64,000 nucleotides of DNA from positions 13,844,501-13,908,500 of the forward strand of contig JASXTE010000004.1 in assembly GCA_030280995.1 (NCBI GenBank). Reading direction: 5' to 3'. Below are positions 264 through 39,623 of the stretch, one piece after another (position 1 is the stretch's first letter; each line of letters starts with the position of its first letter). This DNA comes from Hemileia vastatrix (taxonomy: Eukaryota > Basidiomycota > Pucciniomycetes > Pucciniales > Zaghouaniaceae). The notes under the pieces were generated by a model. The model ran no database searches, was not told the DNA's origin, and was given only the letters and a program-made list of their open reading frames with translations. The position numbers and the translations under genes are program-made.

Positions 264-266
264 AAT

Positions 267-322
267 CACCATGGGAAATCTATGGGTGAATTGCTAGCAA
301 TCCCCTCTCTTGAAATTTAGAG
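267..322 (+). repeat. Left terminal inverted repeat of the giant CACTA-like element
   Basis: It aligns with the reverse complement of 29485-29540 apart from small indels and substitutions. Shared blocks are CACCA, GAAATC, GGGTGAA, TGCTAGCA, CCCTC and TTGAAA. The palindromic TGCTAGCA core also occurs in the MITE at 16801-17061 and in the end at 50836. Confidence 0.88.
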
Positions 323-1196
323 TGTCCCTTAATTATGCCAGGTTTATGAATACTTTATAAACATAAGTAAATTAGAGTTAGGTTTACATTTATTCTCAGA
401 TTGGTCCAAAAATGAACCTCAATTGATCTCATGTTATGCATAAGTTGATCAACTATAACCATGATTTTATCCTTCATTGAGCACACATTGAGCACACATT
501 GATCCAACATAAGCTTTTGAATATGCAATATTATTATCAATTTAGAGGAAGAAAATTATTCCTTAACATACCTAATCATTAGTTTTCATTCAAAAGAAAA
601 ACCATAAAATTATGAAAGTAAATTTAATTTAGAATAATAATATCTTTTACTACATAATTGTAACAATAGATAAATTTAGCAAATTTTTTGATCACAAATA
701 TTAATAGCTATAGGGATTGAAATAACTAATGCCATTCCTATTTTCAAATTTTAAAAAGATTATAGTCACTTCTCACTTCTAATCTATTAAGTCTTTGCAA
801 AACTAAATTTTGTATAATTTTTTAAATTTTACCTAAAATATAAGACCTACAGGCTATTGAAAATAAAATCTTCAGCTACTCAACTAAAAGAAATATTTAT
901 ATTTATATAAGAATAAAAATAGTCCTTAAAGTGTATAACTTGAATGGTTGTTATGTAAATTAATATGCAAGTTTTCCGATTTAAATATTTAATGCTAATA
1001 TAAATCACTTTCCCAAGTTTTGGCATGAGTACATGTGAAATAGTAACTGCATTTAAAAGTGGAAACCAATATAATGACAAAAATATTTACAAAATTTATT
1101 TCAGTTTAATATTTATCTGTAAAAAATTTTTAAAGCAATATTCTATTCATCTTCTTAAGGATCTCTTCCTCCTCCTCTACCCATCTAATTTTTAAT
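323..1196. other. AT-rich subterminal DNA without recognisable genes
   Basis: Only short, low-complexity open frames without recognisable domains are seen. Apart from the subterminal repeats at 412-510, nothing stands out. Confidence 0.6.
412..510 (+). repeat. Subterminal TTGAGC-type repeats, left end
   Basis: Positions 476-505 hold ATTGAGCACAC repeated, then ATTGATCC, with a related CTCAATTGATC nearby. The right end of the element (29312-29392) has four GCTCAA motifs, the same word inverted. CACTA elements of other organisms carry subterminal motifs bound by their accessory protein. That these words are such binding sites is inference. Confidence 0.5.
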
Positions 1197-2034
1197 AGGG
1201 GGTCTCAAACTTGAACAAATATGCCAGGTGGATTTCATTTGAAAACCACCACATAAACACACCTTGAAACATGGCTGATTTGGTACATGAGATCTTAAAC
1301 ATGGGGTCAAATATGTCCTACTTTAGTGAAAATTTTCCAACCACAGCACAGCCAACCAATCTACAGATCCTCCCGATTCACCACACATCACATCTTTTGC
1401 CTCCCACTTTTTTGATACAAATTTTTACACATGGTGCCCCAGTAAATTTTGAGCTTTTCATTACTTTCATTAACAACAATTCCTGAAAAAATTTATATCC
1501 TCAAAACTTAGTCATCATGCCAAGAACACTACAAAATCTTCAACACAACCCTTTTAAATCCTTTTTTCATGCCTCAAAATGATCAAGTTGCATGTACTCT
1601 CCACTTGGGTTTGTTTTATATTTGCATATTGACTATTATTTTGAATTTTCACTGAAAGCATAATTTTTCCCTTCCTGATTCATTTTGGTTAATCATCTCA
1701 ACATGAAGTTGGATATTTCAGAAATTACATAATTATTCATTCTTTCTGTTTTTTAATGATCCCTCATATCCTTTTATTCATCTTCTCTCACTTCCTTAAC
1801 TCTTCGTCTATTTCTTTTATCCATCACTTCCTGAACTTCTATCTGGTCCTTTTACATCTTTGAAGACATCTCATCAGGTAAGTCATCCTCTCACCATCTT
1901 TTTTTCAATTTTAACTGATGTTCTTTTTCTGAATTTGTTTTTGTTATTTTTTCTATTTATTTTTTTGTTTTCTCAAATCACATTTCCACTTTTAAGAAGG
2001 TTCTACAGAAGCCTAGCTCTCATATCCACCATGC

Positions 2035-2775
2035 AACGTCTGATTTGGCTCACTGGTTTTTGAGATATTTATCATCCACTTGGCTCAAAATTCCATCAAC
2101 TTTATTTTAATCTTCTCAAGTAGATCTTACTCTGGAACAAACATAATACTTATAAAAAAAGTAGGTAGCTAAAATAGATCTTTTTAGACCATTGATAATA
2201 CCTGGCTTTAAATTTTATTACCCTTTTTTGATTTTCTTTTAAGTCAGAAATAAAAGGTCAGAAATAGGGTTAGGGTTTTTTAAATGACATATCCTTTTGT
2301 TGGAAGAATATGAAGAATCATGGATTTTATTTCCAGCAAATGGTGTTGAATCTGGTCCAGTGGTTGCTGAGATAACTGCTTTCAAAGTTGAATCTTGTTT
2401 CATGGACTAATTTACATTTTTTAAGTTCAATGTTGCATAATATGCATATAGATCTTATGCAATCTATTTCAAATACTACTTCAGGCTTTTGGCTCTGATT
2501 TGATCAGCTAAATATCAGTTTCGGATGAGGCCTTTTAATTTTGTAATTTTATTTTATGAGGATGAATATTAACATTTGCTAGATTTTGGTTCATTCAAAT
2601 CTCACATTATTTTGATTACAGGTTCTCTATAGGCATGAATTTCATTTCCAGAAAGCATAATCAATTTTGGCTCAGAAATTTCTGAGATATCTACTTTTAA
2701 AGTTGAGTCTTTTTATGTAAACTAATTTACATTTTTGAATTTTGATATTCCATAATATGCATGTTTTTTCTGATA
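2035..2775 (+). repeat. Degenerate direct repeats of about 300-bp period
   Basis: Two clear copies (about 2335-2470 and 2640-2775) share GAGATA, TTCAAAGTTGA or TTTAAAGTTGA, ACTAATTTACATTTTT and CATAATATGCAT. A weaker third copy is near 2035-2100. They lie inside the 3.5-kb TIR element. No coding signal was seen. Confidence 0.5.
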
Positions 2776-3468
2776 CTTTTCATTGTACCACTCCCAAGGT
2801 ATGTCTATTCCTCAACTTTTTTTTATCATTTGTTTCCTCAATTTTTATTCTTAATAAATCAATTTTTTCCCTGATTTGTTGATGTTTTGAATTTTTTTCA
2901 GGAGATGGCATCATCAAATCTATTTGGAACTCTTCTCAGCATAATCATCAATCAAAAATCCAAGAGATAATCATCAAACTACCAAGGAAACTCCTTGTTT
3001 GATATCTTGTAAAAAGTGTTCTCATTTTTTTGGAATCTTGTGAAACACTTACTCATTTTGGTTTTTCATTCCAAATCAACCAAAGTCTGATAAACCAGGT
3101 AAGTAAAGCAAGGGGGAAGGGCCCTATTTATATTAAATCTTTAGGGAGGGGTTCTAAATATGGTAATTAGAAGATTTTCAATTTTTTTCTTATTTCATAA
3201 ATTTTTAAATTATCAATTATTAAATATAATCAATCAAATAAACCTTTTGTGCAATTGAGACTTGCTGCTGTATAAATTTGTTCATTTAATTATTTATTTG
3301 TATTGAATGGATGAATTGTCAATACATTGCTTGTCATATGATTTATTTGGCTTTGGTAACATCTGAAATCATTAGTAGGTGTAATTGTGAATCCCATTAC
3401 TTTTACTTGGCTGATTATATTTTTTTATTGATTTATTTAAGAATTTATGAAATTAAAATGAAAATTTG

Positions 3469-3698
3469 TTAATCTTTACCCCCTCCCACAGTAAATTGCA
3501 GGGGGAGGTATTGTGAATTTTTTTTTCTTACATAAATATTTTTTTGACATGAAAAAATTGGCAATCTCCACCCCCTCCCACAGTAAAATTCAGTATGAGG
3601 TATTGCCATTTTTTTTCAGACATAAAAAAAATTTTTGACATGAAAAAAATGGCAATTGCCACCCCCTAATATAGTGAAATGCAGGGGAGGGTATTGCC
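3469..3698 (+). repeat. Three tandem copies of a ~48-bp quasi-palindrome
   Basis: Units at about 3469-3515, 3560-3607 and 3651-3698 recur every ~91 bp. Each has a C-rich left arm (ACCCCCTCCCACAG), a short centre, a G-rich right arm (GCAGGGGGAGG) and outer arms GGCAAT / ATTGCC. T/A-rich DNA with a TTGACATGAAAAAA word separates them. Copies two and three have decayed on one arm. Confidence 0.75.
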
Positions 3699-4723
3699 AA
3701 AATTCTAGATTTAGTAAAAAAAAATTTGTTAATTTATGTATCTTGTGCATAAGGGTTGATTAATAAAGCTGTTGAAAAACCATATTTAACCAAATTATTA
3801 ATAGAAATACAGAATGAATTTTAGTCATGTAGATATGGAGAAAAACATTACTTATAATTTAAATACAAAACATTTAATTAACTGGAATCCTAAATCATAG
3901 CAAGAGTAGAAGCATGCAATGTATATAAGAGGGATTCAAAGCATTTTTTTACAATCAAAATAGTTATTTCCATCTCTAATCTAGAAGAGGTTTTCAAGAT
4001 GGGTAAATGTGCCACCATTTCAATTTGAACTAAAATGACAAAGTGTAACACAGATTTGAATAGAAGGATCTCTTTATGGACAACAAGAATCATTTCTGAA
4101 AATTGAGTGATATTTTATCAGTTCAAGTAACTGAGAAATCCAGGCAAGGTTGTGCAAAATATCAGTTTAAAGCTAATTTCAGGAATGCTTTAAAGAACCT
4201 CAAGGTTAAATTGTGGTTGGTGTTGTATGGAAAGTGTTCTGGAATATAAGTAGTGATTCTTCAGCATGTCACACATGTAAGCCAAGTCAATTACAGCATT
4301 GGAGTTGGTATCTGAGTTAACCAATAGATCCAGGGCTAGAGTGGTAGCAGTTATTTGTAGTTTACAATGGACTGAAAGAGGATTTTTAGTGAATGGTGAT
4401 AAAGACTAAGGGTGAGTGTATCATGAAGTGGCTGCTTAAGTGGTGGGAAGTCACATTTTTCACATGTTGAATAATAAGCCCTTAAGAATTAGGTGAAAAA
4501 GAATCTAAGGAGATGGATTTTCCGTACCTAGTTCTCACTAATCAAGATGAAGGAGAGAAGTGTTTTGATGGCTTTTTCTTCCCAAAAGAAGGTGTGTTAG
4601 AGATAAAACACACCATCAAAATAAACCTGCCCTAGACAGGTGTATTTCATTTTCTGATGGGGTTTTTCGTAATTATTTTATGGCGTGTTTATGTGGCATA
4701 TTTGATCAATTTTGAGACCCCCT

Positions 4724-4923
4724 AATTTACTCCATAACATTTCATTTTCATAGAAAATATCTACTGTTTTAGAACTCTCCTTATCAGCAATGGCCCATTT
4801 TATTTTTAAGCTATTAATCCCTTCATCAATCCTCTACCACTCATAATTCTTAATGTATCATAGAATATGCATTTTATATTTCCTCTAAACTTTTTTACAA
4901 GATTTCAAATGTCGGATAACACT
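4724..4923. other. Short AT-rich spacer
   Basis: AT-rich DNA between the 3.5-kb TIR element and the hairpin array; no feature recognised. Confidence 0.5.
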
Positions 4924-6371
4924 ACGAGCCAGGGGGAGCCTGGCTGGTAGTAACTTAAAATTGCATAAAAAAAATTGAACCCGAGCCACAGGAAGTGGCT
5001 CGGGTTTTAATATATATACATTATTTGCTGCCAGCTTTAAGCTAGCAGCGTTTAATAAAAATGACAAAAAAAATGACCAAAGCCACTAAAAGTGGCTTTG
5101 GCCAATTAAATAATACATCTTGCAGGCAGTTTTAAACTGCCTGCATGATGTTGTGTTTAAAAGCAAGCGAAGTTGCATGCAGCAACTTTGCTTGCTTATT
5201 TTTTATATATTAATAACTTGCAGCCAGTATAAAACTGGCTGCAAGTCTTTTTTTAAAGCAACCAAAGTCGCTTGTAGCAACTTTGGTTGCAATAATATTT
5301 TGTTCATCTCCCAGCCAGCTAACACTAGCTGGGAGGTTTTAAGGTGATCTAGCAGCCAATGTTGCTTTAAGCAACATTGGCCGCTTAAAATATTTACTAC
5401 CAGCCAGGGGGAGCCTGGCTGGTAATTATTTAAAATAAAGTAAAAAAAAAATAGCCCGAGCCACAGGAAGTGGCTCGGGATTGAAAAAAAAAACTTTGCT
5501 GCCAGCTTTAAGCTGGCAGCATTTAATTAAAAAAAATCAAAAAAATGACCAAAGCCACTAAAAGTGGCGTTGGTCAAATTTATAATATATATTGCAGGCA
5601 GTTTAAAACTGCCTGCAAGATGTTTTGTTTAAAAGCGAGCAAAGTTGCATGCAGCAACTTTGCTCGCTTTTTTTTATATATTAATGACTTGCAGCCAGTA
5701 TAAAACTGGCTGCAAGTCTTTTTTTAAAGCAACCAAAGTCGCTTGTAGCAACTTTGGTTGCAAACGGTTTTTAGCATCTCCCAGCCAGATAACACTGGCT
5801 GGGAGGTTTTAAGGTAAGATTTGAGCAGCCAATGTTGCTTTAAGCAACATTGGCTGCTTAAAATATTTACTACCAGCCAGGGGGAGCCTGGCTGGTAATT
5901 CTTTAAAAAAAAGTAAAAAAAAAATAACGCGAGCCACAGGAAGTGGCTTGGGATTAAAAAAAAAAACTTTGCTGCCAGCTTAAAGCTGGCAGCATTTAAT
6001 AAAAAATATGAAAAAAAATGACCAAAGCCACTAAAAGTGGCTTTGTTCAAATTTATAATATATATTGCAGGCAGTTTAAAACTGCCTGCAAGATGTTTTG
6101 TTTAAAAGCGAGAGAAGTAGCATGCAGCAACTTCGCTCGCTTTTTTTTATATAATAATGACTTTCAGCCAGTATAAAACTGGCTGCAAGCCTTTTTTTAA
6201 AGCAAACAAAGTTGTTTGTAGCGACTTTGGTTGCAAACGGTTTTTCGCATCTCCCAGCCAGATAACACTGGCTGGGAGGCTTTAACGTGAGATTTGAGCA
6301 GCCCATGTTGCTTTAAGCAACATTGGCTACTATAGAAAATAAACTACCAGCCAGGGGGAGACTGGCTGGTT
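4924..6371. repeat. Higher-order array of ten distinct hairpins, three 474-bp units
   Basis: The unit repeats at 475, 473 and 474 bp (right arm of the first hairpin ends at 4948, 5423, 5896 and 6370). Each unit has ten different GC-rich palindromes separated by ~15-40 bp of A/T. In unit two: A 5398-5424 (stem TACCAGCCAGG, loop GGGAG), B 5455-5479 (CCCGAGCCAC, loop AGGAA), C 5498-5520, D 5546-5576 (loop TAAAA), E 5592-5618, F 5635-5667 (14-bp stem, loop ATGCA), G 5687-5717 (loop TATAAAA), H 5729-5761, I 5778-5805, J 5824-5858. About 31 hairpins in total. Hairpin F shows paired changes between units. Open frames across the array are artefacts of the arms. Confidence 0.93.
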
Positions 6372-8487: not shown

Positions 8488-9484
8488 ATGCTTGAAGCAA
8501 CAATTCAGTGCATCAAAGACTTTTCTTATTGTGAACATCAAGTTTTACAAAATAAAGCTCATAAAAATGGTGGTGGATTTGGTAATATGTTTGTTGGTGG
8601 TAGGTGTTTATATAGGAAAAAGTCTCTATTAATTCGTAAGTATTATATAGTTTTATTTATGAATAGTTTTAATCTACTATTATTTTAATTACTTTTATAG
8701 GTAAATATGCTTCTAAGCCCTTAGATTTGGCAGAGTATGATTGTTGCATGAAGCAAATAGAGTTATTCTTTAAATTTTTTTATCAAAATATATCTAATGT
8801 TAAGTATCAAGAAGCAGTAAAGCTCTGTCAAAAGCTCGGGATTCCTGGGTTTGGAGAAAATTTTGATGATCAAGAACTTGAACCATTTGCTGGAAATGTT
8901 ACTTGGACAACAGGCTCAAATGGAAACAGGTTTTCGAATAGTCCTCACTGTGACTCAGACCATAGCAAGTATACATTTGGACTTTTCATGCCTAAAGACA
9001 CTTAGAAAAATTCTCTTCATAAATCTTATGACTCAAATCAACCACGTCAAAAAGGTGGAGAACTTCATTTTCCTGAAATAGCTTGCAAAGTAGACATGGA
9101 GGCCACTAATGGCATCACAGCAATTCTATGGCCAGCAAACCTTCTTAATAATTTCACTTCACAATGTTATGAAATTGATGGATTCACTCGCATTGGCTCT
9201 TCTATTCAAGTTAGTACAAGACTTTTCAATACATTTAAAAAACTCCAAGAGTTTAAAATAGATATTTCTGAGTACTTAAATATAGATGAAGAGTTAGAAA
9301 GATGTAAATTTCTTATCATGAAACTTTCTAAGTACAATGAAAAGACTGAATTAACAAAAAAAAAAAGTTAGTGAATCACTATATATTTAATGTTACTAAA
9401 GATATTAAAAAATTATATACAGAAAAAGATTCTGATATACATGTTAATAAAAAAAGGAAAAGACCATTAAGTAGTGATAAGTGA
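8488..9484 (+). pseudogene. Tet-like 2OG-Fe(II) oxygenase, interrupted
   Basis: Exon 1 ends at 8635, a GT-AG intron spans 8636-8700 (65 bp), and exon 2 continues in frame. The domain core is visible: GNVTWTTGSNG, then SPHCDSDHSKYTFGLF with an HxD iron-binding pair, then KGGELHFPEIACKVD and FTRIGSSIQVSTRL. This block order is that of the Tet-like 2OG-Fe(II) oxygenases that rusts carry in many copies; relatives oxidise methylated bases. The start at 8488 is only the first ATG; a degraded exon may precede it. An in-frame TAG (9003-9005) splits the domain. The region after ILWPANLL has Asn where relatives, as I recall, carry the second iron-binding His. An 11-A run at about 9356-9366 shifts the frame away from a basic tail (KKRKRP) ending at 9484. 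Probably catalytically dead. Confidence 0.78.
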
Positions 9485-11728: not shown

Positions 11729-14376
11729 TTATGTATTAATTACGTCAACAATAGAGAAAAATGAAGAATTCGGCTTAATAAGATTCCAATAATCAAGAAA
11801 ATCAGCTGCCATTGCTTTAGCAATATGGCTCATGGTGGGAGTATTAAAATTAAGTGGCATAGGCCCAGAATTATCTATTAATGGTTTGATAATATTAAAG
11901 ATATAAAAATTAAGGTTTTTACAGATTTTTTCACCGCCCAGATTATTATTATCACAGTATTTTCTAAGGAGGCTGAGTTGTGTTATGAATTCTAAGCAGT
12001 CTGAAGCTGACACAAGCCTGTGGTCCTGTGAGGAAAAAATAATCCAACAACACCATCAACCAAGTAAAAAGTAAATGATTGATATTTATGGTGTGAATAT
12101 TCTTGATTCATCTTCTGAATAGAATCAGTATGAGACTCATCAAATTGCTGCATATCTGTTGTTTTTTTTATTCCTCGAATGTTGTCGTTTCTTGCTTTCA
12201 GCTTGAGTTATATTTGCAGCAGCCTCTCTAGATTTTAAAATAATTATTGAAATTATGACGTCGATTATTATGTTTCTAAATTGGCATAGGGGAGTGGTTG
12301 AAAAATTTGCAGCAATTAACTGTGATGTTGAGCTGTCAAATGTATCGGGAACTTTGCTTTTCAGATGTGTAAGGCGGGCTAGAATATGTAGGGCACGTTC
12401 AATAGGACAATCTGGATTGAAGTTGGATTCTTCAGCAGGAAGGGTAAACTCTTGAGAAGCAAGATAAAGAGATGATGCAACGAGGGATGCCCAAAAAGAA
12501 CGCTGGTGAGCACTTGGGCTAACTAGTCTTGATAGCATGCATATCATCGATGATTCAGGGTGATCAGTCTTCTTAAACGGAGAAAGATTATTTGAGTTTG
12601 GTTCTTCAGAGTTACAAAAATTTTCCAAATTTTCAAAGTTCAAATTATTGACCACCCAGATCTGCAAAGTGTCAACATTAAGAAAATCCAAAGCTAAAAA
12701 AATAACCAAACAATTAGTTATCATAAAATAAATTATCCAACTTCAAGTAAGTGATACATACAGAGTTCATTAATTTTTGTAAGCATTTCGTCATGAGTAG
12801 ATTTCATCCATAGAAACTTGAATTTGTGCAAAATTTCTTGTGGCTTTTCAAGAGAAGCAGACAAACCGATTTCAAATAACTGATCAATTTCTGGCCATTC
12901 CCTAAGTACCTTTTGAACATTGATTCTACCTTCAAAAAATCAATGAATTTCAGCTATTTGCTTCAGTAATTTTGAGTTTCCAATCATTGTTGGAGTATAA
13001 GGAAGGGAGTTATTAGAAATTTTTATTGATGATGATAGAGACCGTAGGATTTGGGGAATTTCAATTTTAGATTTTGAAGATACGGCAACTATAAGCTGTT
13101 TCTTTGAACTTGAAGTATTTTTTTGTGGCTGGCTAGGTGGATCGATTTCTTCATTCAGTGTTTTCTCAACCTCATCAGAAGAAGTAGCTTCATCATCTTT
13201 TTGAGTTAGAGAAGCTTCATATTTTGAAACTTCATCATCTTCTTCTTCATTAGAGCAAGATTCGCTATTAGTTGACGCTTTGGAGTGATTGTCGTTTTTA
13301 GAGCTGGATTAAAAGATAAGAAAAAGACAAGAAATAATAAATAAGAAAGTAAAAAATTTGGAGATAGCTTTAAACACTAATATAAAATTGATTTCTATAT
13401 TACTCATGAAAGAAATGACATACCCTTTTGACACATTTTGGCTAGTTTGTTTAGATTTTTGAGATGCTGAGTAAGAGGAATCCTTGGCAGGAGGAGTTTT
13501 AGTAGCACTGACAAAACTAGAGCCCCTAGAAAGTCTCATTCTTTTTGAACGTCGAAGAATAGTCTTATCTCCCCCTCGAGATGTTGATGCATAGCCTTCA
13601 GCATCAGGTATTTCCTTATCATCATCATCTTTGATGATAATGACATCATCATCTTTGATGATAATGACATCATCATCTTTGATGATAATGAAATCATCAT
13701 CTTTGATGATAATGACATCATCATCTTTGATGATAATGACATCATCATCTTTGATGATAATGAAATCATCATCTTTGATGATAATGACATCATCATCTTT
13801 GATGATAATGACATCATCATCTTTGATGATAATGACATCATCATCTTTGATGATAATGACATCATCATCTTTGATGATAATGACATCATCAGGAGGAATG
13901 ATACCTTTTTCATAAGCTGAATTTGAATAAGTTTTAAAGAAAAAGTGTTGATAATTTATTGTTCTGAGTTTAAAGAATTTAATATAAAATAATTACTTAC
14001 ATTTTTCTAGGTCATCAATGTATTCAAGCACATTGTTGTAGGCATTTGAAATATAAGATGGCAAAGGCTTCTCGCTAAGAGTTGACAGTAGTTCTTCAGT
14101 TTTGCCTTTAGAAAACTCAAGTATCTTGCCATATTGAGATTGGGTAATTTCAGTCCTTTCATTGGCAAGAGAAGGGGGGTTTGGAGACATGCCTAGAGGT
14201 GGTTGTTTCTTGAGTTTGAAGGATTTGAATTGAGGATGCTGATGAGATTTGGTCAAATAACTACTTGGTGCTAATATATCAAATATATTAATGGAAAAGA
14301 AAAGTTAGTCTAAGAAGATATAAGAGATAAAGCAATAGATCTTACATAAAGGAGGTTTCTGTTTATCACAAGGCAT
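11729..14376 (-). pseudogene. Five-exon gene of unknown function, damaged
   Basis: The start ATG is at 14376 (MPCDKQKPPL). Consistent GT-AG introns are at 14271-14345, 13917-14000, 13304-13423 and 12694-12761, all keeping frame. Exon 2 encodes a basic, Ser/Pro-rich region ending YNNVLEYIDDLEK. Exon 3 carries an in-frame acidic/hydrophobic minisatellite (DDDVIIIK-like) followed by SRGGDKTILRRSKRMRL, a possible nuclear signal. Exon 4 is Glu/Asp- and Ser-rich, then has EWPEIDQLFEIGLSASLEK; exon 5 holds QRSFWASLVASSLYL. An in-frame TGA (12940-12942) and a frameshift near 12100-12150 break it; coding-like sequence resumes to 11729 (HRLVSASDCLEFITQLSLLR). I recognise no domain. It may be an accessory transposon gene. 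Confidence 0.6.
13625..13895 (-). repeat. Coding minisatellite, 30-bp unit, about nine copies
   Basis: Nine near-identical 30-bp units (ATGACATCATCATCTTTGAT plus GATA), a few with GAAATC for GACATC. In the frame of the host exon on the minus strand each unit encodes ten residues rich in Asp and Ile (VIIIKDDD pattern), so copy-number changes keep the frame. Two other frames are also open, giving Met/Ser shadows. Confidence 0.9.
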
Positions 14377-15676
14377 TTTAATGACTTATTACTTGAAAAA
14401 AATGAAAAATTCTTATATCAAGGTAATAAAGAGATAAAAAATATATATTGCTATTTTTATTTTCAAGCTGTAATAACACAGACAAATGTGATAACCAAAA
14501 GATAATAGTAGTAAAATTGAGAGAAATAAATGAATTGAGAAATGTGGTACTAAACAAGAGGGTTTATATATTACCAGAAGCAGGTTTTTGATAGGGGTTC
14601 TTTTAAAATGGCATCAAGCTAGCGAGAATATTGTAAAATAGTCTGATGATAATAATGGGGTTAATAGTAAAAGGGAAGTAACTAGACATGAAAATTGGGG
14701 GCTTAAAAGGATGACAAACAAATAAAATTTCCAATTTACAATTTGATAATCTCAAAGGGTAAATAGTTGAGAATATAAGTTTAACTAATTTAAATATTTA
14801 AATTAATTTTTAAATATCAACATCATGCAATATGACAAAGGGATCTATTATTGGAAATTTTGGCATCTTTATGTGTTATAAAAAATAGGGGACAAAAACA
14901 AAGGAAAAAGATAATTTAAAAAAAGGGGATAAAAAAAGATAACACTAAATATTATTATATAAAATTATTAAAAAAATTAATTTATTCTATGATAGGAGCT
15001 CGTTTGGGCTGCGCTGACACCCCGTGGCACAAACCTAGTCTAAACTTAGTTAAAGTTAAATTGATATAATAAATCGGAAATAGAAACACTTAAGAATCTT
15101 AGCATATGATTAAAGTATAAAATTATTTGAAATTATTGCCATATAAAATCCAATAACCAACTACCAAAGTCACAATTTTTTTAAAGTATTTTACAGATTT
15201 GTACAAGGTTACGTACTGTAAACATCATTAAATAGTAATTGATGAACACTTTCCACTGAGATAACTAAGTTGAAAAAGAAAATAGATAATGGATATATGT
15301 TTCTAACTTGAGCTATTATTGAATAGGAGCAGTCAAAAAAATATAGCAGGATTAATAAGGGTATTTTTTACATTGATGTAAAGCTTGGTTGATAAAATAG
15401 TAAAAACCTTTAAATCAGGACTAAAAAAAATAATCAAATCAAAGAGTAATATTAGAAATAGGTGTTATAAAAATTATAACCAATATCTTAGAAATATTGA
15501 GGGAAATAAATTACTGGTAATCGCAAAAAATATTGTACTCTTTTACCTTAAAATGGAAATAACAACTACTCATAATATACTCAAAACAACTACCAATAGC
15601 TAAAGGTTTCCCTCTTTACCAAAAGACCATGGTAAGGAATATGTAGACAATTGAATCCATCAAACTGTTTTGAGTA
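14377..15676. other. AT-rich intergenic DNA with one GC-rich patch
   Basis: No gene seen. A GC-rich patch at about 14995-15040 (GTTTGGGCTGCGCTGACACC) stands out from the background; it may be the end of an unidentified repeat. Confidence 0.5.
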
Positions 15677-17809
15677 AAGTGTCCAGCACAAGTTCGGCCG
15701 AGCTTGTGCTGGACACTTTTATAAGGAAAACCTCACTTCTCTTAAAAAAACATACACCTTACTAACTTCAAATTATAAAAGTGTCCAGCATAAGTACAGC
15801 CAAACTTGTTCTGGACACTTTGGCCAAGACCAGTGACTAAAAATTGAAGGAAAACCAAAAATCAATAGGCTATAAAAGGAAGTTAATTGATGGCATCAAA
15901 TTGTTTTTTGGTAAAAGTGTCCAGCACAAGTTCGGCCACCCTTGTGCTGGACACTTTTATGAGGAACACCTCACTTCTCTTAAAAAAACATGCACCTTAC
16001 CAAATTCAAATTGGAAAAGTGTCCAGCACAAGTTCGGCCGAACTTATGCTGGACAATTTGGCCAAGACCAGTGACTAAAAATTGCAAGTAAAACCAAAAA
16101 TCAATAGGCTATAAAAGGAAGTTAATTGATGGCATCAATATTTTTTTTGGTAAATGTGTCCAGCACAAGTTTGGCCGAACTTATGCTGGACACTTTTCCA
16201 ATTTGAAGTTGGTGAGGTGTTCCTCATAAAAGTGTCCAGCACAAGTTTGGCCAAACTTGTGATGGACACTTTTACCAAAAAAAAAATGATGCTATCAAAT
16301 ATGTTCATGTTATAGCCTAATTTTTTTTAATTTCGTTGAAGTAATAAGTTACTGTCCATGACCAAAGTGTCCAGCACAAGTTCGGCCGAACTTATGCTGG
16401 ACACTTTTATAATTTGAAGTTGGTAAGGTGCATGTTTTTTTAAGAGAAGTGAGGTTTTCCTTATAAACGTGTCCAGCACAAGTTCGGCCAAACTTGTGCT
16501 GGACACTTTTACCAAAGACATTAGATAGCATCAATTATCTTCATTATTTGGGCTATTTTTATTGGTATTCCTTGCAATTTTTAGTCACTGTTCTTTGCCA
16601 AAGTGTCCAGCACAAGTTCGGCCGAACTTATGCTGGACACTTTTATAATTTGAAGTTGGTGAGGTGTATGTTTTTTTAAGAGAAGTGAGGTGTTCCTCAT
16701 AAAAGTGTCCAGCACAAGTTCGGCCAAACTTGTGCTGGAAACTTTGGTCATGGACAGTAACTTATTACTTCAAGGAAATTAAAAAAAAATTAGGCTATAA
16801 CACCACACAATATGGGGGGCAGACTTGCTAGCAAGTCTGCAACCTTGGACCCAAACTCACCATAGATTGAACACACATTGAGCTATTGATAAAGGAACCA
16901 TACAATCAGGGATGAACACCACTCAGCAGAACAGTTTTAGGTGGGTGTTCAAGTAGAGTTCAGTATGGGTTCAGTCTGAGGTCAGTCTGAGTTCCATCTG
17001 AGTTCCATCTGAGTTCAGGTTGAGGACTTGCTAGCAAGTCCACCCCCTATATTGCGTAGTGTAACATGAACATATTTGATAGCATCATTTTTTTTTTTTG
17101 GTAAAAGTGTCCATCACAAGTTCGGCCAAACATGTGCTGGACACTTTTATGAGGAACACCTCACCAACTTCAAATTGGAAAAGTGTCCAGCATAAGTTCG
17201 GCCGAACTTGTGCTGGACACTTTTACCAAAAAAAATATTGATGCCATCAATTAACTTCCTTTTATAGCCTATTGATTTTTGGTTTTCCTTGCAATTTTTA
17301 GTCACTGGTCTTGGCCAAAGTGTCCAGAATAAGTTCGGCTGAACTTGTGCTGGACACTTTTCGAATTTGAATTTGGTAAGGTGCATGTTTTTTTAAGAGA
17401 AGTGATGTGTTCCTCATAAAAGTGTCCAGCATAAGTTCGGCCGAACTTTTGCTGGACACTTTGGTCATAGACAGTAACTTATTACTTCAAGGAAATTAAA
17501 AAAAATTAGGCTATAACATGAACATATTTGATGGCATCTATTTTTTTTTTTGGTAAAAGTGTCCATCACAAGTTCAGCCAAACTTGTGCTGGACACTTTT
17601 ATGAGGAACACCTCACTTCTCTTAAAAAAACATACACCTTACCAACTTTAAATTGGAAAAGTGTCCAGCATAAGTTCGGCCAAGCTTGTGCTGGACACTA
17701 TTACCAAAAAACAATTTGATGCCATCAATTAACTTCCTTTTATAGCCTTTTTATTTTTGGTTTTCCTTGCAATTTTTAGTCACTGGTCTTGGCCAAAGTG
17801 TCCAGCACA
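15677..17809. repeat. Array of 16 copies of a 44-bp palindrome with invertible spacers
   Basis: The palindrome has left arm AAAGTGTCCAGCACAAGTTC, centre GGCC, and the complementary right arm. Copies start near 15677, 15778, 15914, 16018, 16153, 16228, 16364, 16468, 16600, 16702, 17104, 17178, 17316, 17417, 17555 and 17656, with a truncated half copy at 17797-17809. Two main spacers alternate: ~57 bp (with ACCTCACTTCTC) and ~93 bp (with CAATAGGCTATAAAAGG); a third type has AGTAACTTATTACTTC. Spacers appear forward in the first third and reverse-complemented in later parts. The open frames here are shadows of the palindrome. Confidence 0.93.
16801..17061. mobile_element. CACTA-type MITE (261 bp) inserted in the palindrome array
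   Basis: The left end CACCACACAATATGGGGGG and the right end, read inward (CACTACGCAATATAGGGGG), form TIRs that continue into GACTTGCTAGCAAGTC, a perfect 16-bp palindrome present at both ends. TAA flanks each side (16798-16800 and 17062-17064). An uninterrupted copy of the target is visible at about 17508-17540 (GGCTATAACATGAACA), so the empty site confirms the 3-bp duplication. TIR design and the TTGAGC-like subterminal word match the giant element; it could have been mobilised by the same transposase. Confidence 0.92.
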
Positions 17810-20739: not shown

Positions 20740-23700
20740 TAGTGTCTGAAGTCCAACAGCAGTGATAACATTGTACTTTATTCCAAACATTCCCCTTTGG
20801 TGCTGTAAAGTGGCGGCATGTCAAATAATTGAATCTTGATTTATCACAATTTGTGTCGCTTTTTCTACTCTTACTAAACGGCAATGCACTTGTGGAAACG
20901 CCTCATAAGGATCCTTTTTTGTATCTTCTGGTATAAGCTCTTTAAATGGACTAACGATTAGATAGACTTTTTCATTATCGTCCTTTGAACTAAAAAGCTG
21001 ATCAATATGCCCAAACTGACTATCTTTTCCAAAGTAGAATTCAACGGTAGAATTCCCAGGATTCTGGTCATGATTTGTATAACGCTTTCCATGGACCAAT
21101 ATGCTTGCTATATTTTCAACTACCCTGTCTCCTACCTTCTCTGATGGTAACAAAGCCTGTTTAGATGTCTCTTTTCTTAAGCGTGCCCTTACCCATTTTG
21201 TAAATAATGCCTCAGTTAAATGGAAATGTCTTTTTTTTGTATCATACTCAATTTTTTAAATATTAGATCCATACTGAGCATCATCTTCAGCTTCAACTAG
21301 TTCCAATACCCTAGACTTCCGATTCCAGTGCTTGAGCATGTTCCGTGGTATTTCTTCTATGTTCAATAAAAATAAATTAGCTCATTTGCATTTTTAAGCA
21401 CCCAATTACCAAACTAAATACCTGGATGATGATTTTTTTGAATTTCCGATAATATACCATTAACTCTTTCAGCAGCCCAAGTAGCCATACCTACGGGTGG
21501 ACAAAAACGTTTAATCATTTCTGGAAAATGTTGAGTGAAATGAAGATTTGGCTTAAAGCTGATATTTTTCCAACCTTCTTCCAAGCAGTTACAATACTCC
21601 AATAGCAGTTGTTTTAATTCATCAACTTCATCGGCAGACACATTTTTTAAAGTCAAAAAGTTGTAAATTGAACTTAAAGTGGTGAGTGATTTGAGAAGAT
21701 AATATTCTCTAGGTTTGTGGTCTGAAGTCACGGATGTCTCGGCTTGATTTAATTTTTCTACCCAAAGGGGGATAAGTAAAAAAGGAAAGTAAACAGTATA
21801 AAGTACATGCCACTCTGCAGCTTTGAGGGAACCTGAATTTTTAGATCCTACTTGTTTTGGCACTCGTGAAATCAAGGAAGGTTTTTTTGTTTACTCTATC
21901 ACATTCCACACTGCCTCTAGCTCAGTGGCTGACAATTGTGGATTCCTAGTTCTTTCACTTTCTTTCTCTTTGCCCTTCTTTTTATCTTCCTTACTTCTAA
22001 TAGTCTCAACGGATGAATTAGATCTTTCACTTTTGGATATACTGATACTTTTTTGCCTTAAGTTATAGGTTGAATTTCGACTTCCACTTTCAGAAGCATG
22101 TTCGGAGCCAAACTCTAAGGTTTGAAAGTGATGTTCAGAACTTGATGACTTTGTCCGGCTGTTTGATCCTTCCGATTCAGCTCCTCCACTATCCATTCTA
22201 AGATATGTTTGTGACCATCTCATTGTACTTGTATATTGTAGTCTTTTTTGCCGTCCCACTGGTTCAATATTATTGGCATCAGTGCTGATTAAGCTGCTTC
22301 TAGGTTTTTTATATTGCTTATTTAGAAATATATCAGAATGTGCATCATCATATTCTCTTCTTACATGCCAATTTTTTTCCTTTGTCAGATTTTTTTCTAG
22401 GTCGATTGCAGCATTTTGTATTAGATAAAAAGTTAGACTGTGATCTTTAAGATTTCCAAGCATGTGTGAATGCATCAAGTCAATTGAGCAATATTCTCTA
22501 GGTTGCCAATATACAAGGCTATTTAGCTCGCTCCATCGAACCCCATGACTCCTAACAATAGATACCCGCTCCCAATGTGACTGGCACTTTTTCCACTTCT
22601 CTGCCCAGTGCATATGATCCTCATGAGTACGTAAGGAAAATGTTTCAACTTGATGCTCACCAATTTCATCTTTTGAAATATGACAGACAGAGCAGAACTT
22701 AGTGGCTGAGTGACTTGAAAAACCAGCAATCTTTCGCATCGCTGGAATGTCTCCTATTAAAGAGAATAATGCAGCCCTTATTTTTTGGCCCTGTTGATAG
22801 TGAGGTGTTTTTTCAATAAATATGCGATCCCATAGAGTCTTTAGTTCATTGACAAGAGGCTTCAGAAGATGATTTATTTGTTCACTCGTTGGCTCAGTTG
22901 GACCGGGAATAATAGCATACAAAAATAGATTTTTGGTTTTGTATCAATCTTCTGTAGGCAAGTTCATACACACCAACAAGATATTACCCACAGATTTCTG
23001 ATGACCTCCAATACGAGTGCCACCCTGCCTAAACCAGTCAACATAAAAACTAAACATTAAATTACCTTGTGTTTTTGTATGTCCATTGACACTTCTATTT
23101 TAAGTCGTAGAAATATCTGGAAAATATTTCCATACAAAACCATCATATACATCTTTCATGACATCCCTTTCCATGTTTTCTAGAAAATAATTTTTTTTCT
23201 CAATCAGCGTCTTGAATTTTATTAGTTTAAACTTTCCTGAAAGCCATTCAACCAAACTGTTGTGATGAAATGTTTTACAAGGATGGTAGATTGCTTCTTC
23301 TTGTTTGTACCTAGCCAAATACAAATTTTCATCACAATTAACAGTTTCTTCTCTCTGTCCTAAATCTTTCAAATAGCGCTTTGAGGATGAATAAAAAGGT
23401 TGAGTACAAGATAAGATTGATGGTTGGTGTTTGGAGATATACTTATAAAGAGCAAAGCACTTAGCACAGCATGTCTTGCTGACAAATAATGGATTGAGTT
23501 GCAATCGACTAAAAACTGTCTCTATAGAAAGGAGAATCAGGCTGATGATTCTGCTAGCATCTAGTTTGCCTATGTCACTTAGAAGTTTGCGTTTGTTGAC
23601 TTCATCATGCAAAAATTCAGCACAACCTTCTTTGCTTAAATGATGGATAAGAGAAAGTTTTGCTGCTTGCCACATTATCTTTTGGCTATAAGGCTCTTCC

Positions 23701-24034
23701 AAATTCAAATTGTTTGACTGTGGTAGAGATTGAATTGTTTCCAAAACAGGATGCCCCTAAGCAAAGAAAAAAATAGAGATTAATTGAAACATAATTTCTC
23801 TTTATTTACCAAATATTGATGTCTTACAAGATCTGGGATGTTGGATCCTAAGTTAGGTGAAGCGCTGGATGTACCAACCATCTGTGCTTTGCAATTTCTT
23901 TCCTCTTCATGTTTGGAGTATGACTGAGATGTTTTGAAAGCTACATCAACTTCAAAGCTTCCCAATGAGATCTGATGCTTTCTTGATGAACATCCAAGCT
24001 CTTCACATTTACAAACGCAAAAAAATGGTGGCAT
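20740..24034 (-). pseudogene. tnp2: Tnp2-type (CACTA) transposase, multiply interrupted
   Basis: Exon 1 (24034-23820) starts MPPFFCVCKCEELGC; an intron spans 23757-23819. Then come the N-terminal helical region, YVDWFRQGG (first catalytic Asp of the CACTA DDE core), YAIIPGPTEPTSEQINHLL, FCSVCHISKDEIGEH (the C-x2-C/H insertion), CSIDLMHSHMLGNLKDH (second Asp), the DUF4218-like region LKAAEWHVLYTVYFPFLLIP, and MATWAAERVNGIL (the Glu). Another intron follows HHPG near 21415. In-frame stops are at about 23100, 22944, 21891, 21257 and 20821, so this copy is dead as read. The enzyme would cut at the CAC...GTG ends. It is the only transposase seen within 267-29540. Confidence 0.88.
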
Positions 24035-25108
24035 TTTAAGACTTCTGGATATAAGAAATATGTTACTGGATGGTAGAAATTGAACAAACTATTTATTTAT
24101 TGTGAAGCACTTACTAAAATAAGCTAATTTTTACGTCTCAAGAAGTTTATCAACAAGTTGGTTACCATAGATTTATTTGAATGTTTGTTTCATGCAGATC
24201 GACCATGCATTAAGTAGGTATCCATACTGTGCATCAGCAAAATGTTTCAGACTCGCTACATTTTAAAATGTTGCATACATGTTTATCAAACAGCTTATTT
24301 TGCACAAAGCATAATACTATAAGAGAATACAAATTGATCGCATTTTTAAATATAGGAGAAACTATGATATAACTTAAATCAAAATAATACCATTTAATTT
24401 ATAATAATAAAGTTATTTAAGTGTTGCCGTTTTTTTTTCTGCAATCACCTGAATTAATAAAATTCTGCCAAGTAACAGAAAGGTTTTCACTAATAATCAC
24501 CATAAGATATAAAAAAATTTATAATATTTATTTTTCAAAATATAGAATTACAGTCTGAAAAATAAATATTTTTTCAACAAAATATATTATTTTAAAATTT
24601 TCAAATCTAAGAGGTCATCAAAGTAAAGCTTCCAGAATCCATAAAATAGAATTTTTACATTAAGTTGCTTATTCCAAACTCTGAAAAATTGGTATGGTTT
24701 CCGAGTAATCTTGGTAAATAAAATATATACATACTAATAAGGTGTTAATATAAATTTTTAAAATATGTTTGTCAGCACAATCAACAAGCTCAAATAATGT
24801 CATTATTTGCATTAAAATATTATCAAAATAAGTTGGAAAATCAAAATAATTCTGCATTATATTTTTACCTGTTTATCATGCAATAATTTTCTATTACAGC
24901 TGAGTTATTTCCTTTTGAATTAATTATGAACATACATAGATATCCATATTTTATAGAGAAAGATATTCATGAGAAAGCTCATCTGTCCATCCACTCAACT
25001 CTTCATTATTAACTATTTTCAAAATAAAAAATTTATTATAGTAGTGTTTTTGTTTCCATATCCTTTCAAAATTTTATATTTTTGTTCATTTTGCTTTTCA
25101 TAACGTAT
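24035..25108. other. AT-rich divergent intergenic region
   Basis: Lies between the minus-strand Tnp2 gene and a plus-strand gene; it could hold both promoters. No specific motif seen. TTTTCCTCAG at about 25131-25140 could be a 3' splice site, so the next gene may have an upstream exon in this stretch. Confidence 0.45.
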
Positions 25109-26229
25109 ATGATGAGCTCTAGATGTTCTTATTTTCCTCAGGGAAAAATACCTACTAATACCCGTGTACTAAATAAAAGATTCAATGAGATACTCCCTCA
25201 ATCAACTTCTCATTTTTGCAGGTCTATTTACAATTTCTGTCATGTGCTTTTGAATATTTCACCTCAGTCTAATGAATGGAAGCTGAACCCCACCGAAGAA
25301 CAACTACATATGTTTTCATTGTTCAATATAAGCTCTCTCAACATTGATATTAATTTGCCATATCCTGAACAAAATTACCGTGTTTCTGAACAAATCCCTG
25401 CTATATTCCACAATGATTTTATCCACTTTCTTCTTCAATGCAACTTTCCTGGAAAAACGTTTGCTTGGAATCTTGATTGCTTTCACGAGTGGAATCAAGT
25501 TTTGGCAAAAATTATCATTAAGCACTGGGATAAAGCTTTGGAAAAAAATTATTTGGTTTCTTATTCAATGGACTCTACTCATATTTCCTACCTAAATCAA
25601 ATGGGTGTTCTTCACGGCTGGTTTATAGGTTATGCTGATAAATTACGACTTGGAAAAGATTCTGATAGTTTCTGTGAAATAGTTAAAATAAGAAAGTATA
25701 AATATAAAATAAAAAAGAAAGTAAGAACTAATATTTTTATCTTTTTTTTTACACAAGCTTATATAAATTTGACAATCTTTTTCAGAATTCTTTTAACCAA
25801 ATTCACCTTCTTAAACAACTTCCAAGTGGTGAAACCTATGAGAATCTTTTAAAAAACGTCAAATGTTGCTCAGACACCGAAATTGATGATGAAGGTTCTT
25901 TTAAGCGGATTTTATTGCCATGGAGACCTGAAGAATTCTCAAGACTTGCACAAAATCTTGACCAGAAACACATTCAAATCCGAGAATCTTCCTCTTATTC
26001 AGGAGAAATACTTAAGAACTTGGCATTATATGATAGATTAAATTTGGTATCCTCAATTGAGACTCACTTTAATTCTTTTCCAGTCCCCAGGGGTTTGCCA
26101 AGTGACTGCTATTCTTCATTATATCTTGCTTCTCTTAATCCTCAACAATTAAGACTTCTTAATTGTCAAGCCCCAATAATTATTTCCTACATACTTGAAA
26201 AAATTTCAAATTCTAATGTGAGTTATTGA
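25109..26229 (+). CDS. LPxxCYS-family protein, uncharacterised, apparently intact
   Basis: Exon 1 runs from ATG 25109 (or 25112) to 25720, a 65-bp GT-AG intron spans 25721-25785 in phase 0, and exon 2 ends at the stop at 26229; about 350 residues. Blocks: FRSIYNFCHV-like opening, FHNDFIHFLLQCNFPGKTF, HEWNQVLAKIIIKHWDKAL, MGVLHGWFIGYADKLRLG, then LLPWRPEEFSRLAQNLD and the C-terminal VPRGLPSDCYSSLYLASL. This architecture fits a family of rust hypothetical proteins, also represented by the decayed copy at 18540-20241. No catalytic motif is recognisable. It is the only cargo gene without visible damage, which may mean later arrival or selection. An upstream exon spliced at 25141 is possible. Confidence 0.68.
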
Positions 26230-26326
26230 TGAATTCCCTAAAAAATAATCTAGAAGACTCATATTCCTTGTTTCCAATGTTTGGGACACTTAAACTTAAA
26301 AAATTAGAACAGATAAATATTTTTAG

Positions 26327-28770
26327 CTATGATGCAACTTTATATAAAGAAAATTTTACATACATTGATAGCTCAATCTTTTTTCTTTGTATCTTATAAA
26401 TGCTGAATTCAATACTTCTGCTTACAAAATACTTGAGTACATGAGCTTCAATTTGTTGGCCCATTCTATACAGACAATCAACTGCTTGCTGTTCAACTGC
26501 TGGATTCCAATTAGGCTCCTGTTTTAATATTTTATACAAATTCTCTTTTCAACCTTTTCTATTTCAATATAAGACTCTTTGACTTACCATTATATATACA
26601 TTTTGTGCACACCTCAAGTCTATTCCAACTCCTGCAGCCTTGATTGTACCAAGCAAAACTTGACATCTTTCATCATTTTTGAATTTGTCCAGATTTTCAT
26701 CCCTTTTTTTCATGCTCAACTTTCCTACAAGCTTTGTGTAGCTAATTCCATGTTCAGATAAAGCCTTTATTATACTGTTTCATTGGATAGAATATTGAAA
26801 TGTTGTTTAAGCTAAAAATAAGTTATTGAGATAATTAATAGAATTCCTTACATTTTCAAAAAGTCCACATATTCTGAAAATATAACAGCCTTGGGACAAA
26901 TTATCCCCCGTTCTCCCCTTAAGAAAATTTCTAAATGACTGATTAGATGTATAATCTTTGCTGAATGTTTCCATGTGAAAGGAAATGTTGGAGGTTGATC
27001 TGGGTTTTCGTAGACAGGGTGGTTACAAAATTGCCGTAAAATTGACAGTTCTCAGAGAAACTCAGCTGAGTCCCAAGGGAGTTTGGTGTTTCAAGAAGGC
27101 CCATAATACTCAGAAAAACGTTCTTGAAGCTTTGTAAGTTTTGAGTGCCAAGGTTCTGATAATTCTACAGATATTCCTTGCTCAATTTTTTGAGGAAGTG
27201 ATAAGATTGCTTCTTTTGTCCTCCGCAGGCATATGACATTCATGAGAGTATTTATCGATTTTATTGAGCTAGAGCTTCCTCTGTTTAAGCCATTCATAAG
27301 AAAATTAATCAACAACCAGTTTTCTTGCCATCTTTCTATTCTGAGGAATGATATAAGGCTTTGAAGATCAGTTGTCTGGTTCTGAAGTGGTGTCCCTGTC
27401 AAGCATAGTCAATACTCAGCCTCCAAGGCCGATATATTCTGATTCTTGTGCGACTGGGGATTCTTGATCAAACTTTTAAATTATGTTAAACATTTCATCA
27501 GCTTTTATAATATCATGTCCAAAATTATTAGTATTTCAAATGAATGCTTACTGAGCCTCATCTAAAACTATTCTGTACCAAATGAGTTTATGAGTTACTG
27601 GTGAAATAGGTTGAGGAGTTTTCTTTGAAGAAGATGGACTTGCTGTCTCATAGGTAGTCAAAACAACTAGTTTGTTCTGAAGCTCCTCAAAATTAATTTT
27701 CTTTGAATCCTTTCCATAAAGAACCTTGAAAGGTAGTGAATTATCTTCAAAGTGAATTCTTATTTCATTGAACCAGTTTGATAATGTTGCAAGTGGGCAA
27801 ATGATGAGAGTTGCTGATGTCCTATCTTTCTCTTGTCCACCACCCAAGAGTTGGAATCGTTTGGCTTCACTTTGAGTTGCAGTAATTAGGCCAAGAGTTG
27901 AGAGGGTCTTTCCCAAGCCCATATCATCAGCTAGAATTGAACCAATTCCTGAAGAGGATAACTTTTCTTCAAGAAATTTTTCATAATAATTATTAAAACC
28001 CACTCTCAGCCAGCTGTTGTCTGCATGCCTCCACAGGTTTTCTAACTTTTTGGATAAGTTATTTTTATTGTCTATCATAAAACTGATAGCTTGAATCTGA
28101 TGCGTTTTTAGAGTTGTTTTCATACCCCGTATAGATAGATTTTCCATTTGATTATCCCTTGTCCCAGAAATTTCAGAAGTTGTGTGAATACAAGAATGAG
28201 GAATATTGAAGAAGACGGTTGGATTGTAGTGTGGAATTGGTGTCAAATCAATTTGAGCATTTAGAAATAATTCTTTAGCCTGACTAATAAAATCAGTCAA
28301 ACAAAAAAGGAGGCCACAAATTCTATACTGCCTTTTTAATAGTAGAACCAAGTAAGAGCAAAAAAATAAGGTATTTGGGGATTTAAAGCCCTTTCCTCAG
28401 GTAAAATTTGAGATCCAGATCCAATTTCTCCAAGTAGTTGTCCAATTTGGCTGCTCTGTTCATTAGAAAGATCACCAAAAGGTTTTGCTTCTCCTTCTTT
28501 GAATAATCCAAAAACATGAACTAAAGATCTTCCTTGTTGCATAATAACTGGAGTGGATACTTCATCAAATACAGATCTTTCTTTTGGAAAAATAGGTTTA
28601 AAATTTAAAGAGAATTGTCCAATGCATCTTAAATTTGATATTTTAATTAAATGAATTTTATGGTGATGGTGGTAGTTTAAAGAAAGAGAGGGTGAGAGCA
28701 AAGTTTTGAAAGAGAATAAAGTAGAGAATATATATAATATTGGATGAATATTCAAAATTGAATTTCTCAT
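26327..28770 (-). pseudogene. SNF2-family ATPase (Rad5/Rad16-like), decayed
   Basis: Motifs appear in order on the minus strand: NLSIRGMKTTLKTHQIQAI, ILADDMGLGKTLSTLGL (motif I), ATLIICPLATLSNW (Ia), a DEAH box split by an intron (27473-27551), CLTGTPLQN (III), the CLRRTK block, LRQFCNHPVY, PKAVIFSEYVDFL, GTIKAAGVGIDL and NPAVEQQAVDCLYRMGQQ (VI, with Cys for the usual Arg). At least four GT-AG introns are used. Damage: a frameshift near 28340, and TGA stops before LCLTGTPLQN, after EYYGPS and before ELSILRQF. Such ATPases remodel chromatin or DNA-bound protein and are expanded in rust genomes. The 5' end is uncertain. The gene is convergent with the plus-strand gene ending at 26229. Confidence 0.85.
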
Positions 28771-29484
28771 GTATGTTAATAATTAATGTTGACTCACATT
28801 TTAATAATAACTAAATACAGATAAATAATTAAAAAAAGTGCATTATTTTAGAGCCTAAGTTTTGTGCCAATATATTAAAATTAGTTTCTTTAATAGTGTA
28901 AATTTTTTAAAAAATTCATTACTATTTTTTCCCCTTATAAAATATATATATATTTTTTCTCCTACATTAAATTTTTTGAACATTGTCTTATACTTTTTTA
29001 TTCCAAGGAACAATGAGAAATTTCTATTGATAAGGGCTCAATATCCACTTTTGTCTAGAAAATTTAAAATTATGTGCAAATATTTTTACAGAGTTATATT
29101 TTTATTAATAAAATTTTTAAAAAGGACTTAAATAGTATTCTTTTTTATATATTTGCGGAAATAAAATTGATAATTGAAATAATATTCCAGACCTAGTATA
29201 CTATGTGTCATTTAAGATATTTCTACTAATATCAAACCTGACCTCCCAACATTAAATGGATCTATATATAAAATTGAATATTATGGTATGTTAAGTGTTG
29301 TGGCTTAACCATTGCTCAAATTTGTTCCAACTTATGCTCAACTTAAATCCAAAGCTCTGCTCAAGAAGGGATAAATTGAGGCTCAATTTAGGGCCAACTT
29401 TTTTGTCAAAATTTTTTCAAATAATTTAAAAACAGTTTCCTAATTCTTTCAAATAATTTCCCCAACGATTTCCCAACCTCTTCC
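28771..29484. other. AT-rich subterminal region, right side, with GCTCAA motifs
   Basis: No gene. Positions 29312-29392 contain four GCTCAA words, inverted relative to the TTGAGC words near the left end. Confidence 0.5.
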
Positions 29485-29540
29485 TGAAAGTTTCAAAATG
29501 AGGGAACTGCTAGCAGTTCACCCCCTGATTTCATGTGGTG
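29485..29540 (-). repeat. Right terminal inverted repeat of the giant CACTA-like element
   Basis: Ends TTTCATGTGGTG, followed by AAT at 29541-29543. It contains GAACTGCTAGCAGTTC, a perfect palindrome, and CACCCCCTGATTTC, complementary in layout to the left end. Confidence 0.9.
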
Positions 29541-29543
29541 AAT

Positions 29544-39462: not shown

Positions 39463-39623
39463 TGAAAGATGGAGGAATGGGGGGGATTATTTATTTTCTT
39501 TCTTATTTCTGTTTTTCTCTTATATATTTCTTTTCATTTTCTTTAATTTTTTTTGTGATGGTTAATTACAAGGGAGGAGGATAATCAGACTGGAATAATT
39601 TAAATGACCATGTGGGGGGGGAT

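Follow-up and report, generated by a model that had tools for sequence, protein, structure and literature searches.

A 29-kb CACTA/EnSpm element with TET-like dioxygenase and SNF2-family ATPase genes, inserted in a copia retrotransposon of Hemileia vastatrix

Hemileia vastatrix is the coffee leaf rust fungus. Rust genomes are described as among the largest of fungi owing to their transposons, and CACTA is listed among the terminal inverted repeat (TIR) superfamilies which, within Pucciniomycotina, are restricted to Pucciniales (PMC12210899). The present analysis concerns a stretch of 64,000 nucleotides of the H. vastatrix assembly GCA_030280995.1 (contig JASXTE010000004.1, positions 13,844,501 to 13,908,500, forward strand), hereafter the window. 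Positions 264–29543 of the window are one CACTA/EnSpm element with its 3-bp target site duplication (TSD), inserted into a copia retrotransposon. It is very probably a decayed copy of a giant family of this fungus, of about 29 kb, in which genes for a transposase of the tnp2 type, a dioxygenase resembling TET and an ATPase of the SNF2 family have conserved positions.

The TSD reads AAT, with a left copy at 264–266 and a right copy at 29541–29543, as given by the sequence, the end alignment and the empty sites described below. After the left copy the element begins CACCATGGG..., and it closes ...TGGTG at 29540, directly followed by the right copy. The TIRs, delimited by end alignment and genome matches, are 41 bp long. 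The left one (267–307, plus strand), of the form CACCA...TGCTAGCA...CCCCTC, reads CACCATGGGAAATCTATGGGTGAATTGCTAGCAATCCCCTC from 267, while the reverse complement of the right one (29500–29540, minus strand) reads CACCACATGAAATCAGGGGGTGAACTGCTAGCAGTTCCCTC. The two ends align locally with a score of 46, and the highest score reached by any of 300 mononucleotide-shuffled versions of the terminal 300 bp is 29. A preliminary description of this DNA had proposed CACCA...TGGTG inverted ends with AAT on both flanks, which the alignment bears out, and the element thereby has the CAC..GTG TIRs of the CACTA/EnSpm superfamily. The core TGCTAGCA is found six times in the window, where 0.6 occurrences are expected, namely at the two ends of the element, at the two ends of a miniature element nested within it, at one CACTA-like end at 50836 and once within the transposase gene. 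Short subterminal repeats, another feature of CACTA/EnSpm elements, are likewise present, the left (267–566) and right (29241–29540) subterminal regions sharing TTGAGC/TGAGCA-type motifs. These number 11 across both terminal 300-bp pieces, compared with a mean of 0.63 and a maximum of 6 in interior pairs (5,000 draws), for a motif set picked post hoc from sequence already inspected. The motifs would fit putative binding sites of the transposase.

The host copia lies on the minus strand on either side of the element. Its frame continues at 1–263, as judged from the joined frame and the empty sites, and its gag to reverse transcriptase part occupies 29544–33197, where Pfam domains PF07727, PF25597, PF13976 and PF22936 are matched at 29727–32198 and PF14223, slightly under the cut-off, at 32754–33197. 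The minus-strand frame reads ...VLRYLKNTI on one side of the element and resumes as NLSLSFRADSHFDNEG... on the other. When 757 bp of the right flank were used as a query against this genome, 41 rows came back, one of them that of the window itself, and the 12 best-matching of the 40 others served as an empty-site test. When the flanks are joined with a single AAT, they align gap-free over 324–326 bp to 12/12 of these copia paralogues, at 90–97% identity, and the host copia was therefore intact before the insertion. Such empty sites had been suggested as a check by the preliminary description and are found here within the same genome. Its reading of one CACTA-like element, with a copia frame rejoining across it, holds; the restored frame, which it called proof, would by itself also fit growth of the interior inside one insertion, as it noted.

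Further copies were sought in the H. vastatrix genome (747.6 Mb). The first 437 bp of the element gave 1,922 first-look candidates, a term which here and below denotes loose, not confirmed, counts, and 40 of these, among them the window's own, were scored, all 40 at 97% identity or higher. At 20 of the other left ends, the 10 kb lying 21.8–31.8 kb away was searched for a right end, which was present in six cases. The six resulting elements measure about 28.8, 31.6, 29.0, 28.6, 25.6 and 27.5 kb from their coordinates, and their duplications (TGT, TAA, TAT, ATT, TTT and ATA) match in 6/6, the ATA being assigned by position since the first TIR base of that copy differs. With the window, all seven elements with both ends thus have a 3-bp TSD. 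Because these six share the ends, the interior and about the same length, some 29 kb is a normal size of a full copy, the nested 261-bp miniature element being a small exception. The search for same-ended copies of similar size, also proposed beforehand, therefore succeeded within this genome, with a range of 25.6–31.6 kb.

The ends themselves are abundant. Counted as a 41-base form shared by several copies, at most 3 mismatches being allowed, the left end has 964 + 919 = 1,883 genome matches and the right end 1,024 + 1,072 = 2,096, of which 84 are exact; reversed-pattern controls for both forms gave none. Pairing of the ends drew on 100 listed places per end, so that a nearest partner is not necessarily the true one. 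In a first pairing, the listed exact left ends numbered 100 (contigs C2, C19, C26, part of C34), and nine of them faced a listed right end inward within 80 kb, at 9.9, 11.1, 25.5, 29.6, 31.6, 36.4, 37.8, 39.6 and 47.4 kb, and three of the six same-ended elements were recovered among them. A second pairing, of the 40 scored left ends with the 100 listed right ends, gave seven pairs at 24.1, 25.6, 27.5, 31.6, 40.5, 44.1 and 48.7 kb and no wrong-facing neighbour.

The transposase gene (21414–24034, minus strand) encodes a tnp2-type (Transposase_21) DDE transposase, matching PF02992 at 1.8e-9 in the window and at 8.2e-11 in a more distant relative, locus L026, so that the transposase typical of CACTA/EnSpm is present in both. 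Translation would start from an ATG at 24034–24032, with an apparent GT-AG intron at about 23809–23757 (by eye), after which a single frame of 781 codons follows. When the C(2)C and H(3–4)H motifs placed between the second D and the E (PMC12730594) were looked for by eye, the stretches CSVC and WAAERVNG were read. The window copy has three premature stops in this frame, one of them common to two other copies. Ten loci were tried for the same gene, and premature stops occur in 8/8 of those with a usable stretch, although L005 and L024, about 20 kb apart and with four stops in common, are non-independent.

The second gene encodes a TET-like 2-oxoglutarate-Fe(II) dioxygenase, with its main exon at 8673–9371 on the plus strand. 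PF20515 is matched at 5.2e-11 in the window, and two further copies match it at 2.1e-21 and 3.7e-22. The window gene has an in-frame stop at 9003–9005 and an Asn at the position of the distal His iron ligand, which is His in 19/20 other copies, while the HxD motif is retained in all 21 copies aligned. A premature stop falls within the projected TET frame, taken without assessment of frame shifts, in 15/20 other copies, one further copy with a stop in the last codons being left uncounted. A DNA search with the gene gave 513 first-look candidates, and the 40 that were scored were all at 95% identity or higher. A scored TET match lies within 60 kb of 21/40 scored left ends, where 0.26 is expected, and 21/21 are downstream on the same strand; the gene thus sits inside the element, as in the TET+ EnSpm lineage of rusts. 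All 95 candidates from a protein database search with a family TET were worse than E 0.001, and a PDB sequence search matched no chain even at a threshold of E 1.

PF20515 is also frequent elsewhere in this genome. A genome-wide search gave 10,849 first-look candidates, and the 150 that were scored all exceeded the cut-off (150/150), as against 0/14 control genomes. The best of their scores, 105–129 bits, are higher than the 77–80 bits in two copies of the giant CACTA family, and the 150 places do not overlap, by eye, with the 40 scored family TET places; other TET families therefore seem abundant. Just outside its right end, copy L040 has at 4595–5131 a diverged stretch that resembles TET (24% identity, E 6e-7).

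The SNF2-family ATPase gene (26327–28782, minus strand) consists of about six open reading frame (ORF) pieces with SNF2 and Helicase_C domains (PF00176 at 2.9e-26 and 3.7e-14, PF00271 at 8.6e-9). A search with one exon gave 1,087 first-look candidates, and the 40 that were scored were all at 97% identity or higher. Twelve of these 40 have one of the 84 exact right ends close by, at a distance of 1,187–1,190 bp in 11 cases and of 1,453 bp in the twelfth, where the spacing fits a miniature element nested there. In the window, whose right end is outside the exact list, the distance is 1,189 bp. DNMT5 of basidiomycetes is described as an SNF2-methyltransferase fusion (PMC13297926), and derivation of the element's SNF2 from it, as a decoy, was considered and is unsupported. 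The PDB chains listed for three SNF2 pieces include Rad54, DDM1, RAD5 and CHD types, and none of the matches listed for these pieces (60 of 65 rows in one list) is labelled DNMT5 or Rad8.

The relative L026 is 71–74% identical to the window element over two long stretches and 68% at the right end. It keeps the order of the SNF2 gene, a conserved gene of two ORF pieces at 25082–26229 (plus strand), which has no Pfam match, and the transposase. The ratios of nonsynonymous to synonymous change (dN/dS) between the two are 0.25 for SNF2, 0.26 for the 25082–26229 gene and 0.29 for the transposase, in a single comparison that skips stop codons and in which synonymous change is high, at 0.8–1.1 per site. 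As all three genes lie within 0.25–0.29, SNF2 belongs to the lineage of the element.

Copies within the family are decaying. Four copies differ by 3.2–3.9% over 6.8 kb (window 22700–29532), with 418 changes from the majority, of which 140 are C>T/G>A (50 at CpG) and 114 C>A/G>T. In the TET region of 21 copies (L054–L073 and the window) 328 changes from the majority were counted, comprising 101 C>T/G>A and 105 C>A/G>T; 63 of the 101 transitions are at CpG, though the majority sequence has just 8 CpG sites. G:C>T:A transversions are about as frequent as all C>T/G>A transitions, beside strong CpG decay, which makes for an unusual-looking spectrum.

A number of these and other observations weigh against the reading as a giant CACTA family whose TET counters silencing. 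At 14/20 left ends no right end was found in the examined 10 kb. Interior matches are present at ten of these loci, some of them shifted and one just 72–76% alike, while the remaining four (L021, L023, L031, L037) have no match of at least 250 bp to the element; many left ends are therefore those of copies that are broken, or shorter or longer than the element. The first pairing also gave five wrong-facing neighbours, and nearest inward pairs occur at 9.9, 11.1 and 36–49 kb as well. TET was not found in two 2-kb pieces of L026 at its expected, uncertain position. The window copy is itself decayed and, on its predicted frames, unable to make a full transposase or TET protein. Finally, the element has an observed/expected CpG ratio of 0.30, compared with 0.50 for the host copia and 0.22 for the remainder of the window, and the lower value of the element relative to the copia speaks against TET protecting these copies from CpG loss.

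The family accordingly seems to include shorter forms, of about 10–11 kb, and longer ones, and members of differing gene content apparently coexist in the genome, because ends outnumber TET candidates. Some left ends pass into other sequence after 0.8–1.6 kb, including another CACTA-like end, and one such adjoining stretch is 87% like window 53345–54379. In L007, a CACTA-like end CACCACAGAAAAAATGGGGGGGTATTGCTAGCAATACCC stands from 2372, directly after 871 bp of copy, and represents a further related family.

Cut-and-paste insertion is established for CACTA elements. For the giant CACTA family, the transposase would bind the terminal and subterminal repeats, excise the element and insert it at a staggered 3-bp site. 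To judge from its protein family, the TET enzyme may oxidise methylated cytosine on silenced copies and so counter silencing or CpG mutation, and the SNF2 motor, on similar grounds, could open the chromatin of the element and give access to the transposase or TET. Copies would later have gathered CpG transitions and G:C>T:A changes, the sampled ones no longer reading through the transposase. An anti-silencing role of TET is, on the sequence data at hand, about evenly balanced. Somewhat more doubtful, and put forward tentatively, is the proposal that TET, erasing 5-methylcytosine, and SNF2, opening or scanning silenced chromatin, may form a two-part anti-silencing kit co-selected in the giant CACTA lineage. 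If true, the kit would be a transposon-borne parallel to kinetoplastid JBP2, a single host protein in which an SNF2 ATPase and a TET/JBP dioxygenase are fused; the pairing is alike, while here it involves two transposon genes, and the likeness is one of analogy, not kinship. It would at the same time be an opponent of DNMT5 (PMC13297926), and one reason for the spread to about 1,900–2,100 copies per end in a CpG-poor genome. An abundant giant CACTA family in which a chromatin motor accompanies an enzyme of the kind that erases methylation would make the contest of transposon and silencing testable, since methylation, CpG decay and copy number could be set side by side for members of differing gene content.

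An alternative, in which TET and SNF2 would be host genes picked up as passengers that hitch-hike without a role in transposition, is unlikely. The rust TET genes are described as seemingly moved passively between transposon families, with no mobility of their own; each TET is also argued to serve its own transposon, and escape from methylation is proposed for the transposons carrying them (PMC12730594). The frequent stops, in the transposase of 8/8 usable loci and in TET of 15/20 other copies, count in favour of passengers. Against this stand the constraint on SNF2, as strong as that on the transposase in a single comparison between two element families (dN/dS 0.25 vs 0.29), and the iron ligands of TET, with HxD in 21/21 copies and the distal His in 19/20 others.

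It is very unlikely that the element is instead a giant of the Plavaka or Kyakuja-Dileera-Zisupton (KDZ) type, or of the Starship type. Most cargo-bearing giants of fungi are Starships, the hallmark of which is a tyrosine recombinase captain at one end, and no captain-type recombinase domain was found in the 22 element ORF pieces scanned, a subset of the ORFs. TET genes are known in KDZ and Plavaka elements too, and the transposases of rust TET+ EnSpm families are reported to be similar to those of Plavaka (PMC12730594), but the tnp2 transposase, the CAC..GTG ends, the 3-bp duplications and the subterminal repeats all argue for CACTA over these types. The duplication of 3 bp also differs from that of Zisupton-1_PGr, a rust KDZ element, for which 8 bp is given (PMC12730594). 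The remaining alternative, that the two ends come from separate small elements, or from a composite or mis-assembly with ordinary genome between them, draws on the similar ends of the nested miniature at 16801–17061 and of the unpaired end at 50836, and on HiFi reads whose N50 of 16 kb is shorter than 29 kb (PMC10652848), but is ruled out by the 12/12 empty copia sites and by six further elements that share the ends and interior and have matching duplications, and is further opposed by the constant SNF2-to-end spacing in 11/12 cases with an exact right end listed nearby.

A CACTA/EnSpm element with TET cargo has close counterparts in other rusts. From Puccinia striiformis, TET+ EnSpm families have been described whose ends are CAC..GTG and whose duplications measure 3 bp, with relatives in other rusts (Kojima, 2025; PMC12730594), and the Hemileia element agrees with them in these ends and duplications, an EnSpm-type transposase, a TET/JBP gene inside and a rust host. 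The preliminary view that such elements are not well described in fungi is therefore right only in part, these TET-carrying rust EnSpm/CACTA elements having been published in December 2025 (PMC12730594). In the main text on those families, SNF2 and Hemileia each have 0 occurrences (PMC12730594), and literature searches over titles and the starts of abstracts yielded no paper recognised as describing a rust CACTA with SNF2 or a member from Hemileia. Other rust transposons (hAT7, IS3EU, PHISTA, Dileera, ESTA and Helitron1) also have TET/JBP cargo and a proposed anti-silencing role, as here, but differ in their transposases and, where given, in duplication length (PMC12730594). The TET+ CACTA is thus of a kind already known from rusts, whereas its SNF2-carrying, Hemileia variant appears new relative to that main text and those titles and abstracts. 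Plant En/Spm-CACTA giants are alike in CACTA-type ends, 3-bp duplication, subterminal repeats, tnp2 and large size; a soybean CACTA element of 20.5 kb has reportedly been found, and the plant giants are not known to have TET or SNF2 cargo.

Further features lie within the element. The nested miniature CACTA element of 261 bp (16801–17061) has ends CACCACACAATATGGGG.../...TAGTG and a TAA duplication (16798–16800 and 17062–17064). Copies of it, 97–98% alike, are found at other positions inside two giant copies, L032 and L040, and the miniature element therefore moved independently. A miniature-type CACTA-like left end, CACCACACAATATGGGGGGTGGACTTGCTAGCAAGT, stands outside the giant element at 50836–50871, and is unpaired in the TGCTAGCA scan of the window, no other partner search being made. 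Around the nested miniature extends an array of palindromic AAAGTGTCCAGCACAAGTT... repeats (15634–17809), for which other copies show a different arrangement; in this stretch a palindromic motif around AAAGTGTCCAGCACAAGTTCGGCCGAACTTGTGCTGGACACTTT, which has long inverted arms, recurs about 16 times. A region of several ORFs on the minus strand (11729–14304) gave no Pfam match above the cut-off among the ORFs scanned, and within it a coding tandem repeat of 24 bp (13620–13891, 11.3 units, 98%) reads DDDVIIIK on the minus strand. A tandem array with a 473-bp unit (3.1 copies), rich in short inverted repeats, occupies 4921–6370. Beyond the element, the window holds a second copia on the plus strand (34861–39465) and a Gypsy element on the minus strand (55516–61524) with a weak chromodomain match.

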